DNA of 29,887 bases from a virus. The first letter of the stretch is position 1. Every line of letters begins with the position of its first letter. The stretch spans positions 1 to 29,887 of the IMG/VR virus record IMGVR_UViG_3300028592_000059; one strand, written 5' to 3'. Below, one piece after another: positions 4,804 to 18,401 of the stretch. The notes beneath the pieces are model-generated. The model did no database searches, was not told the DNA's origin, and was given only the letters and a program-made list of their open reading frames with translations. The position numbers were made by a program, and so were the translations under genes.

Positions 4804-5136
4804 CAAATCCGCGCTTGAAGGCAGTGGGGAGACTGCGCGCGGAGGTCGAGGAAATCGGGCCATGCACATCTCTGCTCGACGTGCATTCACAAATGATAGG
4901 CAGGGGTAGGGCTATCCCTGATTTCGTGGACAGGTCAACTGCGCGGGGGCGGGAAATCGCGCTGCAAGTGAGGTTATTGCCGATTCCGCCCGACGGAAAA
5001 CCGCTACGCGTTTGGGGTTGTCGCGGAGCAGCGACGGTAGTACATATTTCAAAACGGTTACGGATCACGGATGGGCGGGCGGATCGACCCGCGCTTCCAG
5101 ACAAATGGGGATTGTTTGCGATGCCTCTGATCTCGC
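4804..5136. other. Non-coding gap between regulator and replication operon
   Basis: Open frames exist on both strands, but one runs through the terminator and neither has recognisable content or a ribosome site. Small inverted repeats are visible: ATGCAC/GTGCAT (4862-4867/4881-4886), a near-palindrome AGGGGTAGGGCTATCCCT (about 4901-4918), and GTCGC/GCGAC (5020-5024/5031-5035). They could be operators or leader-RNA structure. I see no clear promoter. Confidence 0.4.
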
Positions 5137-5586
5137 TCATTTGCGGCCGGCCTTCATCTGCTCGTACTCAATGATGTGCCGGTTCTTCAAACGCTCTGCT
5201 TCGAGCTGCTCGCGTAGATCAGCGATCTCGCGGTCCTTGTCGTCCATCGTCTTGCGCATGGCTGCGAGGTCATAGCCATGCTGATGGTTCAGAAAAAGCA
5301 GGTAAGCGTCGTTCTGGACCACCGTGTTGAAACGTTTGATGTCGCGGCCGTCCAGATCGAACTCGCCGGTGGAGATGCGAGACCAGGCGGTCTTATCGAT
5401 ACCCATCTCGCCGTAAATCTGCTTCGGGGCGAGCCGTGCGAGTTCGCAGCCGTACAGCAGCGCTTCGTGCGTGCTGTCGAGCGTGTAGATGCGGTCGAAG
5501 CTCACCGGCCTCGACACAACCTTTGGCGGCTCAGGCAGCAGCGCCAGTTGTGCAACGTCTTTCAACTTTGTTGCTGATCGTTGCAT
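5137..5586 (-). CDS. Phage regulatory protein with HTH-like core and coiled-coil tail
   Basis: This is a 149-residue protein. Residues 38-105 (TLDSTHEALLYGCELARLA...IYGEMGIDKTAWSRISTGEF...FLNHQHGYDL) follow a pattern common in small phage proteins encoded beside immunity genes: a lambda-repressor-like helix-turn-helix in which MGIDKTAWSRI is the recognition part. Residues 108-145 form a charged coiled coil likely to dimerise. It follows the Cro-like gene leftward and precedes the 4771-4803 terminator, so it is likely transcribed from pL. A CII-like or secondary repressor role is possible. It has no strong ribosome site. Confidence 0.7.
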   Translation of the reverse strand: MQRSATKLKDVAQLALLPEPPKVVSRPVSFDRIYTLDSTHEALLYGCELARLAPKQIYGEMGIDKTAWSRISTGEFDLDGRDIKRFNTVVQNDAYLLFLNHQHGYDLAAMRKTMDDKDREIADLREQLEAERLKNRHIIEYEQMKAGRK

Positions 5587-5643
5587 ATCGATTATCTGGG
5601 CAAATTTTTTTATGGGGGCGACGATGACAGTGACGAAGGGGAA

Positions 5644-5865
5644 TCAACCCGCCTTGCGCCTTGTGGCCAGCTTGGGCGAAGTCTTGGAGCAAACAGATTC
5701 ATGCAACGACACCAGTTTCAGTGCCGCCCCGCCTTTGGGCTCGGTCGTGCGTCCCTGCTCGATGTCGCTTACCGCCGAGGGCGATAGACCGATGCGTTCG
5801 CCAACTTCAGCCAGCGTCAGCCCAGTGGCCCGAAGGTCCGATACTCGCGATGCCCATGTAGTCAT
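5644..5865 (-). CDS. Cro-like small XRE-family repressor
   Basis: The 73-residue protein has a compact HTH at residues 6-45: VSDLRATGLTLAEVGERIGLSP, then SAVSDIEQGR, the recognition-helix signature of the XRE/Cro-CI family. It has no oligomerisation or protease domain, like Cro. The ATG at 5865 is chosen because the HTH starts right after it, upstream sequence in the same frame is unconvincing, and the pL start point falls on this ATG. No Shine-Dalgarno is present, consistent with a leaderless mRNA. It diverges from the repressor gene across a 76-bp operator region. Its position at the head of the leftward operon suggests the lytic-side regulator; that assignment is inference. Confidence 0.78.
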   Translation of the reverse strand: MTTWASRVSDLRATGLTLAEVGERIGLSPSAVSDIEQGRTTEPKGGAALKLVSLHESVCSKTSPKLATRRKAG

Positions 5866-5872
5866 GGGTCCG

Positions 5873-5900
5873 AGTGTACTACGGCCCGCCGTAGAGTCAA
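5873..5900 (-). promoter_or_regulatory. Promoter pL (leftward)
   Basis: On the minus strand, TTGACT (5900-5895) and TACACT (5878-5873) are separated by 16 bp. The whole spacer is the palindromic operator at 5879-5894. A start point about 7 bases beyond the -10 falls at 5865-5866, on the first base of the Cro-like ATG. Confidence 0.75.
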
Positions 5901-5931
5901 CACGACGGCTCCCCGTTACGGAAGTCCGTGA
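5879..5931. promoter_or_regulatory. Left operator cluster (three palindromic sites)
   Basis: Three 16-bp sites share the pattern YTACGG-N4-CCGTAR. Site 1 is 5879-5894 (CTACGG/CCGTAG, perfect). Site 2 is 5903-5918 (CGACGG/CCGTTA, weaker). Site 3 is 5916-5931 (TTACGG/CCGTGA). Centres of sites 1 and 2 are 24 bp apart and sites 2 and 3 overlap by 3 bp. Site 1 fills the pL spacer. Site 3 lies just upstream of the repressor ATG and should autoregulate it. Confidence 0.75.
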
Positions 5932-5941
5932 CAATGTGCGC

Positions 5942-6349
5942 ATGCCTAGACCGCCAGGATTGCCGAAGTTCGACACCCTTGGCCCCCGCGTCCGATGGTG
6001 GCGGGAGCACCGTAAATTCAAGCGCTCGGAATTCGCCAAGCTCGTCGGGATGAGCTATTCAGGATTGGCCGACCTGGAGAACGACCGTTCCCAGGAAAGC
6101 AAGAAGCTGCACCTCATAGCGGCCAAGCTGAAGCTCAATGCCTATTATCTGGAGACGGACAAGGGCGAGCCGGAGGCCGAGTATTCCCAGGAGCCGCCGA
6201 CCCCGATGGCTGACTGGCCGTTCCAGGCCGTTTCAATCGATAAGCTGAACAAACTCAACATGATCGAGCGTAGCTACGCCGAGACCAAACTGCTCGAAGC
6301 CCTGGCCGACATCGACGCCGAGCGCCGGAAGACGAAGAAGGCCGGCTGA
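5942..6349 (+). CDS. CI-like phage repressor lacking a peptidase domain
   Basis: This is a 135-residue protein. Residues 13-70 form an XRE helix-turn-helix (RVRWWREHRKFKRSEFAKLVG, then MSYSGLADLENDRS as recognition helix), followed by LIAAKLKLNAYYLETDKGEP, the usual end of a CI N-terminal domain. The C-terminal 45 residues (DWPFQAVSIDKLNKLNMIERS...) are helical and probably dimerise. No LexA/S24 Ser-Lys protease region is present, so RecA-stimulated self-cleavage is not expected. The ATG at 5942 lies 10 bp past operator site 3, with GACAAT (5930-5935) as a possible weak -10. No ribosome site is seen, so this message may also be leaderless. A longer frame upstream on this strand overlaps operators and is not credible coding sequence. 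Confidence 0.8.
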   Translation: MPRPPGLPKFDTLGPRVRWWREHRKFKRSEFAKLVGMSYSGLADLENDRSQESKKLHLIAAKLKLNAYYLETDKGEPEAEYSQEPPTPMADWPFQAVSIDKLNKLNMIERSYAETKLLEALADIDAERRKTKKAG

Positions 6350-6376
6350 CCCTCCCAATAAGGGCGAACCACAAAG

Positions 6377-6399
6377 ACCCGGCTCAGGCCGGGTTTTTT
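6377..6399 (+). terminator. Rho-independent terminator after the repressor gene
   Basis: A perfect 7-bp stem ACCCGGC/GCCGGGT with a TCAG loop is followed by six T (6394-6399). It ends 19 bp before the right operators and isolates repressor transcription from the rightward early operon. Confidence 0.93.
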
Positions 6400-6417
6400 G
6401 TGCCCCATCGAAAAATC

Positions 6418-6459
6418 CTACGGCTCCCCGTTGACATTTATTACGGCCGGCCGTAGTCT
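6418..6459 (+). promoter_or_regulatory. Promoter pR with two operators
   Basis: A consensus -35 TTGACA (6431-6436) and TAGTCT (6454-6459) are separated by 17 bp. The palindrome TTACGG-CCGG-CCGTAG at 6441-6456 occupies the spacer. A weaker site CTACGG-CTCC-CCGTTG at 6418-6433 overlaps the -35; the site centres are 23 bp apart. A 13-bp stretch ACGGCTCCCCGTT recurs at 5905-5917 and 6420-6432, next to the left and right sites. This should drive the long rightward operon beginning at 6521. Confidence 0.8.
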
Positions 6460-6520
6460 ACTCCCACGCCCACACCACGGGCACCGGGAGCAGCAAGTGA
6501 TCCACCCCGACGCACGGCAA

Positions 6521-6889
6521 ATGAAAGGACTGATCGTAATCGCCGCCCTAGCTCTCACTGGCTGCGCCGCCACGCCTGACCAGGGCGCCCCGCTCCGCTC
6601 CGAGTGCATCGACACCGGTGAGGTCGCGTCCTTCACGGTGATGATCCGTGACCCGCGTCGCATCCAGGAAATGTTTGCTCACACGCCGCGCGACGCGACC
6701 ACACGCCCGGATTTCGTGAGCGCCTTCACCGGCACCAACGCCCGCGGCCAGATGACCTTGGTCCTGCCGCCGCTGCGTGGTCAGCGCGATCACGAGCGCC
6801 TGACGGTGTGGGGCCACGAGCTGGCACACATCGTCTGCGGATCCTTTCACGACCATCAGGACGGCGTCGAACAGTGGAGAGGCAAATGA
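6521..6889 (+). CDS. Predicted lipoprotein with HExxH metallopeptidase motif
   Basis: This is a 122-residue protein. Residues 1-15 form a short signal peptide ending in the lipobox LTGC (lipidated Cys15), so the mature protein should be anchored in an envelope membrane. Residues 99-110 read HELAHIVCGSFH: an HExxH zinc site (H99, E100, H103) with a possible third ligand at H110. The spacing is one residue longer than in metzincins. The ATG at 6521 is chosen because it starts directly at the signal peptide; the upstream in-frame extension runs through the promoter and terminator. It is the first gene after pR. Candidate roles are an exclusion or envelope-modifying lipoprotein. ImmA-like proteases share HExxH but are cytoplasmic. 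Substrate unknown. Confidence 0.75.
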   Translation: MKGLIVIAALALTGCAATPDQGAPLRSECIDTGEVASFTVMIRDPRRIQEMFAHTPRDATTRPDFVSAFTGTNARGQMTLVLPPLRGQRDHERLTVWGHELAHIVCGSFHDHQDGVEQWRGK

Positions 6890-6945
6890 TCCCCTCAGAC
6901 ACCCGCATCCAGGCTCTTCGTCACGACTGACTGCGTGCTGGTGTC

Positions 6946-7116
6946 ATGAAGTACGTATTCCAAGGCGATGCGCTGGACTCGCTCGGAGTGATGTTCGCGG
7001 CAGAACTGGCATTCGCGGGCGGACTGCTCGAAGAGATGCCGGTCGATGCCGAGGATGCTGTCGACGCATTTGAAGCGATCGGCGTGGAGATCGAGCGCGT
7101 TGTCGGTGCCAACTGA
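6946..7116 (+). CDS. Small acidic hypothetical protein (56 aa)
   Basis: This short frame begins MKYVFQGDALDSLGVMF and is strongly acidic (EEMPVDAEDAVDAFEAIGVEIER). Codon use fits the neighbours and the frame ends 9 bp before the next gene. No family is recognised. Acidic phage microproteins often mimic DNA or bind host proteins, but nothing here proves that. A 13-codon frame at 6887-6928, overlapping the lipoprotein stop, may couple translation across the gap. Confidence 0.5.
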   Translation: MKYVFQGDALDSLGVMFAAELAFAGGLLEEMPVDAEDAVDAFEAIGVEIERVVGAN

Positions 7117-7125
7117 ACAGGAGAC

Positions 7126-7485
7126 ATGAACTCTATGAGCGACAAGTTTGCACAACCCGCCAACATCGATGGCCTCGACGTGGCGTTCCCGACTTCGGTC
7201 GATCACCTGATGCCTGCATACCGCGATCTGGATGAGAAGTATCGTCGGCACTACGGCACCTGGGGCAATCGGTTGTTTTCCGATTGGTTCTACTGCGGTC
7301 TGAAATCCACAGACGGACTCGTGCCGCGCGAAGGGGTCGACAAGCAAAAGGCACTTCGTCACATCACGACGGTGATGCGCTCGTGGGATCCGAAGCACGA
7401 ACACAAGGAAGCCGGCTGCGCCTTCCTGTTCGACAAGTGGTTCGACGGCGAAAAGAGCACGTGGGAACGGGCGGAAGCCGCCTGA
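7126..7485 (+). CDS. Hypothetical phage protein (119 aa)
   Basis: The soluble protein is rich in aromatic residues (RDLDEKYRRHYGTWGNRLFSDWFYCGL) and ends in KWFDGEKSTWERAEAA. AGGAG lies directly upstream. The ATG at 7135 has better spacing to it (11 bases) than the ATG at 7126 (2 bases), so either may be used. No family is recognised. The opposite strand carries a long open frame here, but it lacks a ribosome site and spans three plus-strand genes. Confidence 0.65.
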   Translation: MNSMSDKFAQPANIDGLDVAFPTSVDHLMPAYRDLDEKYRRHYGTWGNRLFSDWFYCGLKSTDGLVPREGVDKQKALRHITTVMRSWDPKHEHKEAGCAFLFDKWFDGEKSTWERAEAA

Positions 7486-7513
7486 TGCATCACTGCCGAT
7501 AGGACAACGACTC

Positions 7514-7852
7514 ATGAGCAACAAAATTCGCAACGCAGTCCTGCTCGCGGCCGACCACGTCGAGCAGTTCCCGAGTGAGTTCAATTTCTTCTCGTTCGAA
7601 ATTCCGCTGAAGAAACACTGCGGGACGCCCGGCTGTGCGCTCGGCTGGATTGCGCACTTCCTGGGATACCAGGGCGAGGACTGGACCAATCTCGTCGGTG
7701 TTAGTGACTCCGAGTTCTACGAGCGCATGGATGCACTCGAAGGCCACGATTCGGAAACGGCTGGCCGATGGGGTGACTGGTCGAGGTCGGCTGATAAGTG
7801 TGCCGCAGCCCTTCGGCGCTACGCGGACAAGCACTTGCCCGAGACCAAGTGA
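7514..7852 (+). CDS. Hypothetical phage protein with CGTPGCALGW motif
   Basis: This is a 112-residue protein containing HCGTPGCALGWIAHFLG (about residues 35-51), a cysteine-containing motif I associate with small uncharacterised phage early proteins, followed by an acidic region and a helical C-terminus. An AGGA ribosome site lies 9 bases upstream of the ATG. Function is unknown. It is part of the first block of the rightward operon. Confidence 0.65.
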   Translation: MSNKIRNAVLLAADHVEQFPSEFNFFSFEIPLKKHCGTPGCALGWIAHFLGYQGEDWTNLVGVSDSEFYERMDALEGHDSETAGRWGDWSRSADKCAAALRRYADKHLPETK

Positions 7853-7863
7853 CGGATAGCCAG

Positions 7864-8055
7864 ATGTCAAAGAAACGAGCCAGGAAAGATCTGCTGACGC
7901 TTGCCGAATGGTGCGAAGGCATGTCGCGACACAACCTCGTGCTGGCGAGCGAAGACGACCGGAATAAGCAGCAAGTCCGAAGCTTGCTGTTCAAGGCGAA
8001 GCGATTTGCACAGTGCGCCACCGCCCTGCGAAACGCGATGCCCGCGCAACTGTGA
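7864..8055 (+). CDS. Small basic hypothetical protein (63 aa)
   Basis: The 63-residue helical protein has a basic start (MSKKRARKDLLTLAEWCEGM) and a later KAKRFAQCATALRNAM helix. It is compatible with a nucleic-acid-binding or adaptor protein, but no family is recognised. It starts 11 bp after the previous gene with a weak GGAT ribosome site and reads in the operon direction. Confidence 0.55.
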   Translation: MSKKRARKDLLTLAEWCEGMSRHNLVLASEDDRNKQQVRSLLFKAKRFAQCATALRNAMPAQL

Positions 8056-8488: not shown

Positions 8489-8563
8489 GCGACCGTAGCC
8501 TAGTGGAGAGGCAGCCGAATTCTACTCGGCACAACGTGGGTTCGAATCCTACCGGTCGCGCCA
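8489..8563 (+). tRNA. tRNA-Arg (anticodon TCT), CCA encoded
   Basis: A complete 75-base cloverleaf is readable. The acceptor stem is GCGACCG/CGGTCGC (8489-8495 with 8553-8559), discriminator G, then encoded CCA. The D arm is GCCT/AGGC. The anticodon stem GCCGA/TCGGC is perfect with loop ATTCTAC, anticodon TCT at 8521-8523. The T arm is GTGGG-TTCGAAT-CCTAC with one G-T pair. It decodes AGA, expected to be rare in a GC-rich host, so it may help phage translation. It lies inside the early operon. Confidence 0.95.
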
Positions 8564-17717: not shown

Positions 17718-18401
17718 ATGGGTCACATAGAAGTCGCCCTGCGTGTCGACTATGGCCAGGTTTCGCCCGCGATCCGCGAGCACCTCCACGAACTCAGAAT
17801 CGTCCACGATCCCGACCACCCCGACCGCCAAATCCCGCCCTTCGACGCCGCCGGCCGCGACATCCTGGACATCGGCTGCGGGATCGGCCAGACACTGACC
17901 GCCCCGGAGTTTGCCGGTGCCCGGTCTCATCATGGTGTCGACGTGAACGCCGAGGCGGTCGACTATGGGATGGAGCGCTTTCCGCATCTCAGCCTGCGAC
18001 ACGCCCTCGCCGAAGCTTTGCCGTATGACGATGAGACCTTCGATCTCGTCTACAGTAGGGTCGCCATCCCGTACACGGATATCCCTCGCGCGCTCGCCGA
18101 AGCGCGACGCGTGCTGCGGCCGGGCGGCCAGCTGTGGATCAGCTTGCATGGATGGCGGATGGAGCTGACGAGCATCAGGGAGGCGCGCACGATCAAGAAA
18201 TGGCTGTTCCGATTCTACGTGTGGGCAAACTCACTGTGGTTCCACATCGCCGGCCGCACATTCAAGCACCCGGTGCACAAGCGCACGACGTGCCTACAGA
18301 CGCGCGGCGGGATCACGAGAGCGCTCAAGCGAGCGGGATTCGACGGCGTCGAGCTCGACGAGCAAGGGCCGCACTTCAGCGCGAGGGCGAGTCGGCCGTA
18401 A
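17718..18401 (+). CDS. Class I SAM-dependent methyltransferase
   Basis: This is a 227-residue enzyme. Motif I is DIGCGIGQT (51-59), the acidic ribose-binding end of strand 2 is GVDVN (D75), motif LPYDDETFDLVYSR lies at 101-114, and LRPGGQLWIS at 133-142: the Methyltransf_11 layout. No DNA-methylase DPPY/NPPY or PC motif is present, so a small-molecule, lipid or protein substrate is more likely than DNA. A hydrophobic stretch around 180-200 could touch membrane. It lies alone between attP and the convergent lysis genes, the usual place for lysogenic cargo. GAGG precedes the ATG. Confidence 0.85.
   Translation: MGHIEVALRVDYGQVSPAIREHLHELRIVHDPDHPDRQIPPFDAAGRDILDIGCGIGQTLTAPEFAGARSHHGVDVNAEAVDYGMERFPHLSLRHALAEALPYDDETFDLVYSRVAIPYTDIPRALAEARRVLRPGGQLWISLHGWRMELTSIREARTIKKWLFRFYVWANSLWFHIAGRTFKHPVHKRTTCLQTRGGITRALKRAGFDGVELDEQGPHFSARASRP

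Follow-up and report, generated by a model that had tools for sequence, protein, structure and literature searches.

A candidate lambda-type immunity region in mirror image, with an operator code of its own and an overlapping operator pair, in a group of uncharacterised phages and prophages

A run of inverted repeats on either side of a small helix-turn-helix gene raises the question of whether the locus is the genetic switch of a temperate phage and, if so, how closely that switch follows the design of phage lambda. The stretch analysed here (the window) is a 29,887-base IMG/VR fragment with open ends; the motif counts given below refer to this window, and further sites in the genome are possible. 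A preliminary description had listed five sites of the form YTACGG-N4-CCGTAR, at 5879-5894, 5903-5918, 5916-5931, 6418-6433 and 6441-6456, and all five are present at these positions. The form itself is matched exactly at 5879-5894 and 6441-6456, but 5916-5931 and 6418-6433 each carry one mismatch and 5903-5918 carries two. When up to one mismatch was allowed, the window yielded four matches (0.05 expected), all confined to one 578-bp interval, and none of 100 shuffles reached that number. A sixth site was rejected, there being no further match within one mismatch in the window. At up to three mismatches the motif was hardly distinctive (34 matches versus 23 expected). Because the motif is near background at this level, 5903-5918 is credible mainly through the relatives described below, which retain a site at that position.

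The sites proved to be built into promoters. On the minus strand, the cro promoter at 5873-5900 (-35 TTGACT at 5900-5895, -10 TACACT at 5878-5873) was the sole match of a promoter scan over 5000-8000 (0.7 expected), and its 16-bp spacer is exactly filled by the OR1-type operator at 5879-5894 (CTACGGCCCGCCGTAG), a perfect palindrome conserved in 51 distinct blocks. On the plus strand, the OL-side promoter at 6431-6459 (TTGACA at 6431-6436, a 17-bp spacer, TAGTCT at 6454-6459) was read directly from the sequence and falls under the threshold of the scan. Here the OL1-type operator (6441-6456; TTACGGCCGGCCGTAG) lies within the spacer and extends into the -10, whereas the OL2-type operator (6418-6433; CTACGGCTCCCCGTTG) finishes with the TTG that starts the -35. 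Both promoters had been proposed earlier, together with a strong site in each spacer and a second site 23-24 bp away; all of these features were borne out and are kept in relatives, in which the position of the cro promoter and the arrangement of the OL-side promoter recur. The names pL and pR given to them were functionally swapped, however: 5873-5900 serves cro and the replication genes, as lambda pR does, whereas 6431-6459 serves the ERF, YqaJ exonuclease and integrase genes and is the analogue of lambda pL. The repressor gene is preceded on the plus strand by the -10 GACAAT at 5930-5935 (family consensus TNNAAT), with no recognisable -35; this -10, like the TAGTCT of the OL-side promoter, is weak, and it is overlapped by the OR3-type operator (5916-5931; TTACGGAAGTCCGTGA). 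Centre to centre, the OR2-type operator (5903-5918) lies 24 bp from OR1 and 13 bp from OR3, with which it shares 3 bp, and the two OL sites lie 23 bp apart; a third OL site was considered and rejected. The 13-bp overlap beside the repressor gene, unremarked in the preliminary description, is the most unusual feature of the region. In the window's own subclade (L005 and L006), OR2 is degenerate (2-3 mismatches). The distance of about 530 bp given earlier for the gap between the clusters is a fair round figure, the outer sites being 562 bp apart centre to centre.

The genes around these sites are those of a phage. To the left, the minus strand encodes a 73-aa Cro-like XRE protein (5644-5865; HTH_3, 32.6 bits against a cut-off of 23), a 149-aa protein in the cII position downstream of cro (5137-5586; no informative family match), a DUF3102 protein, a ResIII-type helicase and a Toprim primase. 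To the right, the plus strand encodes the 135-aa putative repressor (5942-6349; HTH_3, 27 bits, same cut-off) and, beyond the sites, a lipoprotein-like protein with a HELAH motif as the first gene of the OL-side operon (6497-6889; start GTG 6497 or ATG 6521; weak M48 match, E 0.0088), later an ERF annealing protein and a YqaJ exonuclease and, farther on, an integrase. The terminator proposed at 6377-6399 after the repressor gene is real; it spans 6373-6398 on the plus strand (-18 kcal/mol, z -4.8), is conserved in relatives and can also be read in L005 and L006. A tRNA-Arg (TCT) gene lies at 8489-8563 inside the OL-side operon, and a SAM-dependent methyltransferase-like ORF, perhaps cargo, adjoins the integrase gene at 17718-18401. 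The putative repressor combines a 434/P22-type HTH (13-72) with a long C-terminal helix, and no Pfam S24 peptidase match was found in it. Its AlphaFold model (mean pLDDT 79.6, pTM 0.50) likewise showed a 434-like HTH and the long helix, presumably with a role in dimerisation, and its nearest folds were P22 c2, 434 Cro and SinR. Both XRE proteins are small; length, position and class kinship point to 5942-6349, rather than the Cro-like 5644-5865, as the lysogenic repressor. A restriction-modification controller protein was also considered, and was rejected because the phage gene context does not fit. Given that the cro ATG lies only 7 nt past its -10 and the repressor ATG only 6 nt past its own, leaderless mRNAs are predicted for both genes. 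In L005 (5515-5530) and L006 (5051-5066), the OL operon opens with a gene whose start, 7 nt past the -10, would make it leaderless as well; the window (6454-6475) has lost that gene, its operon starting lower down with a Shine-Dalgarno-like GGGAG before GTG 6497.

Relatives of the locus were found in viral and bacterial contigs. Viral contigs with repressors 85%, 85% and 64% identical retain the sites; the most distant of the three (L009) has all five with matching spacing despite diverged flanking DNA, and more distant relatives (L078 and L080) keep the sites as well. A promoter-plus-operator pattern matched 65 stretches in viral contigs, some surely by chance, and a tighter OL pattern matched 10 stretches in bacterial contigs, including Stenotrophomonas maltophilia, Luteimonas, Rhodanobacter, a Lysobacteraceae isolate and a Methylotenera MAG. 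The 13-bp OR3-OR2 overlap pattern matched 61 viral stretches, versus 8 for a pattern with one extra base between the sites, which serves as a rough background. When all collected loci were scanned for three-site blocks, 61 matches were obtained, corresponding to 51 distinct blocks, mostly from viral contigs with a few from Lysobacteraceae-type chromosomes. Because the motif was part of the patterns by which the loci were collected, conservation at the searched positions is by construction and is no evidence; independent of the search are the fixed distance of OR1, the position of the -35, the flanking genes, the start codons and the control scan. In L021 (5414-5489) and L055 (87-162), no repressor gene intervenes between an OL-type promoter and an OR block, which are placed back to back with a gap of about 60 bp. 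Neither the window region nor its repressor had a match when the phage collection was searched with DNA and protein, and the Cro-like protein drew only three weak HTH matches; a profile search of genome contigs with the repressor found no relative, and homologues of the long repressors described below were all less than 60% identical in the phage collection. A full-text literature search for five operator variants and the overlap, with subscription journals mostly outside its coverage, returned a single unrelated match and nothing relevant.

The 51 blocks share a strict geometry. The OR3-OR2 distance of 13 bp was set by the scan; OR2-OR1, for which 22-25 bp was allowed, measured 24 bp in 45 blocks and 23 bp in the other 6, and OL2-OL1 in relatives measured 23-24 bp. 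The TTG of the -35 abuts the edge of OR2 in 49 of 51 blocks, partly by construction since the scan required a nearby TTG, and the cro start lies 6-8 nt past the scored -10 in 37 of the 42 blocks scored. On the repressor side, the -10 T-N-N-A-A-T straddles the edge of OR3 (A, A and T in 47, 50 and 50 of 51 blocks), and a start codon (ATG or GTG) follows TNNAAT after exactly 6 nt in 45 of 51. No repressor -35 of note was found, the best match being 3-4 of 6 positions in 48 of 51 blocks. A common rule of promoter overlap emerges: OR2 and OL2 reach into -35 boxes, spacers accommodate OR1 and OL1, and OR3 extends into the repressor -10. In 46 of 51 blocks, an A occupies the base common to OR3 (position 15) and OR2 (position 2), which suits OR3 and spoils OR2. 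In L136/L138 (G180:C21:318179-318207), CCGTTG occurs on both strands beside the overlapping OR3/OR2 pair, as if two promoters had this pair in common. With transcription starting at the A of the repressor start codon, the operator centres would fall at -18.5 (OR3), -31.5 (OR2) and -55.5 (OR1). The corresponding lambda operators lie near -19, -42 and -66 relative to the repressor start; OR3 is thus at about the same distance in both, whereas OR2 and OR1 lie nearer to the start here by about one helical turn, with OR2 covering the place of the -35.

Repressors could be read from many of these blocks and fell into 28 long (at least 200 aa) and 16 short (127-150 aa) proteins. A Peptidase_S24 domain was present in all four long repressors tested and in none of the six short ones, and is lacking in the window repressor. 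A tree built on the HTH portion separated the two classes at a single branch with weak support (71/93), and gain or loss of S24 may be a single event. Many S24-class phages (L018, L023, L027, L031, L043 and others) also have a longer Cro (about 150-157 aa), which carries an additional conserved stretch at its C terminus (SKRALRxxxG...). The distribution of S24 bears on the earlier suggestion of looping between dimers at the two clusters, which had been drawn from their distance. A lambda-like cooperative switch with an OL-OR loop might be envisaged, given that the two clusters flank the repressor gene in all members where both were found, that pairs 23-24 bp apart match those at the lambda early promoters, and that S24-bearing members could form CI-like oligomers. 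The lambda loop, however, spans about 2.3 kb and requires contacts of the CI C-terminal domain (PMC5880393). The window repressor has no S24-type C-terminal domain, there is no OL3, and OL1-OR1 distances in 31 relatives (503-2119 bp) were without helical phasing at 10.5 bp (R 0.10); a period of 10.3 bp (p ~0.025), one of four tried, was not taken up. Looping thus found no support and seems unlikely. Since the repressor is HTH only, lambda-style RecA cleavage is likewise not supported for the window phage, and LexA boxes of two forms, the Xanthomonas type and CTGT-N8-ACAG, sought in the window as a clue to induction, did not occur above chance.

Given that a repressor without an S24 domain needs another route of induction, only one of the two XRE proteins might bind the sites while the other acts by protein-protein contact, in the manner of the antirepressor Mor on TP901-1 CI. 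CI:Mor of TP901-1 and phi13 is a precedent for such control (PMC11149083), and the Phi106 repressor-AimX complex was among the weak fold matches of the window repressor. The recognition helices argue otherwise. Nearly every block is flanked by divergent XRE genes, and their helices share [AS]-x-[ST]-[TS]-[LVI]-x-[DN]-[LI] (the comparison excluded the cro ORFs picked for L016 and L103, whose reading frame is evidently wrong). Near-identical recognition helices in both proteins, across about 50 phages with one operator, make a single binder improbable; the shared consensus is the best sequence argument for two binders, and suggests that repressor and Cro read the same operator. That a host regulator uses these sites while the phage proteins work at others, as a conserved palindrome inside promoters could in principle allow, is highly improbable, since the window has no site within one mismatch outside this interval, the sites of relatives track phage XRE gene pairs, and the overlap pattern followed by TTG was found in just 5 of 395 sampled genomes of the Stenotrophomonas family.

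Taken together, these data indicate that the locus is very probably the immunity region of a temperate phage, lambda-like in mirror image but with a different operator code, whose sites would be bound by repressor and Cro dimers. Starting from the sites, spacing, promoters, conservation and gene content, all read from the sequence, we infer the binding proteins, repression, exclusive occupation and leaderless translation as follows. The 135-aa repressor and, in competition, the 73-aa Cro-like protein would bind as dimers to TACGG-N4-CCGTA sites. At OR1 or OL1, inside the promoter spacer, a dimer would block RNA polymerase, and at OR2 or OL2, 23-24 bp away, one would cover the -35. In a lysogen, the cro/replication operon to the left and the recombination/integration operon to the right would be shut off. 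Because OR3 overlaps the repressor -10, its occupation, presumably by Cro or excess repressor, would turn the repressor gene off, and because OR2 and OR3 share 3 bp, they would be filled one at a time. Lambda-style activation of the repressor promoter from OR2 is geometrically unlikely, since OR2 is centred some 31 bp before the repressor start, where the -35 is missing, and not near -42.

The comparison with known systems can now be drawn. The preliminary description was wrong to set the locus apart from lambda on the ground that the repressor gene lies between the clusters; lambda cI, with rexA and rexB, also sits between OR and OL (PMC3708714). Both systems have, moreover, a divergent cro sharing one operator cluster with the repressor gene, a second cluster beyond that gene in an outward promoter, replication genes beyond cro, and recombination and integrase genes on the OL side. 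The lambda repressor message is leaderless, as is predicted here, but the cro message is predicted to be leaderless here as well. Further differences from lambda are the operator sequence, OR3-OR2 centres 13 bp apart with overlap rather than about 23 bp (the 24- and 13-bp spacings being kept in 51 blocks), two OL sites rather than three, OR2 over the place of the repressor -35, 0.56 kb rather than 2.3 kb between clusters, and an HTH-only repressor lacking the S24 domain that in lambda provides cooperativity and RecA-assisted cleavage. Among solved structures, the DNA-binding domain comes closest to the 434 repressor in sequence (1per) and to the P22 c2 repressor in fold (3jxb), but operator and recognition helix differ, and the C-terminal S24 domain is absent here. 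Short repressors of the TP901-1 and P2 type are likewise HTH proteins without a RecA-cleavable domain; TP901-1, however, pairs CI with Mor and P2 C binds direct repeats (PMC4752584), whereas the present sites are palindromes in a lambda layout. As far as sequence can tell, the switch is of lambda-type layout but departs from lambda in OR spacing, number of OL sites and S24 domain, and, with its own operator code and spacing, it recurs in about 50 uncharacterised phages and prophages.

More tentatively, and with rather less than even confidence, these loci may represent a widespread class of switch with promoter elements fused to all its operators, OR2 and OR3 as overlapping either/or sites, a repressor promoter that works without a -35 or lambda-style positive autoregulation, leaderless repressor and cro mRNAs, and repressors with or without an SOS-cleavable domain acting under one operator code. 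Lambda is the textbook switch, and the way its operators are spaced, like its positive autoregulation, is often assumed to hold generally; the phages and prophages found here, about 50 in number, share one operator code in a geometry unlike that of lambda, and no close relative of these proteins was found among 50,697 phage records. The natural occurrence of SOS-cleavable and HTH-only versions opens a way to test which elements of lambda's design are necessary, and the shared operator code predicts cross-immunity between otherwise different prophages.
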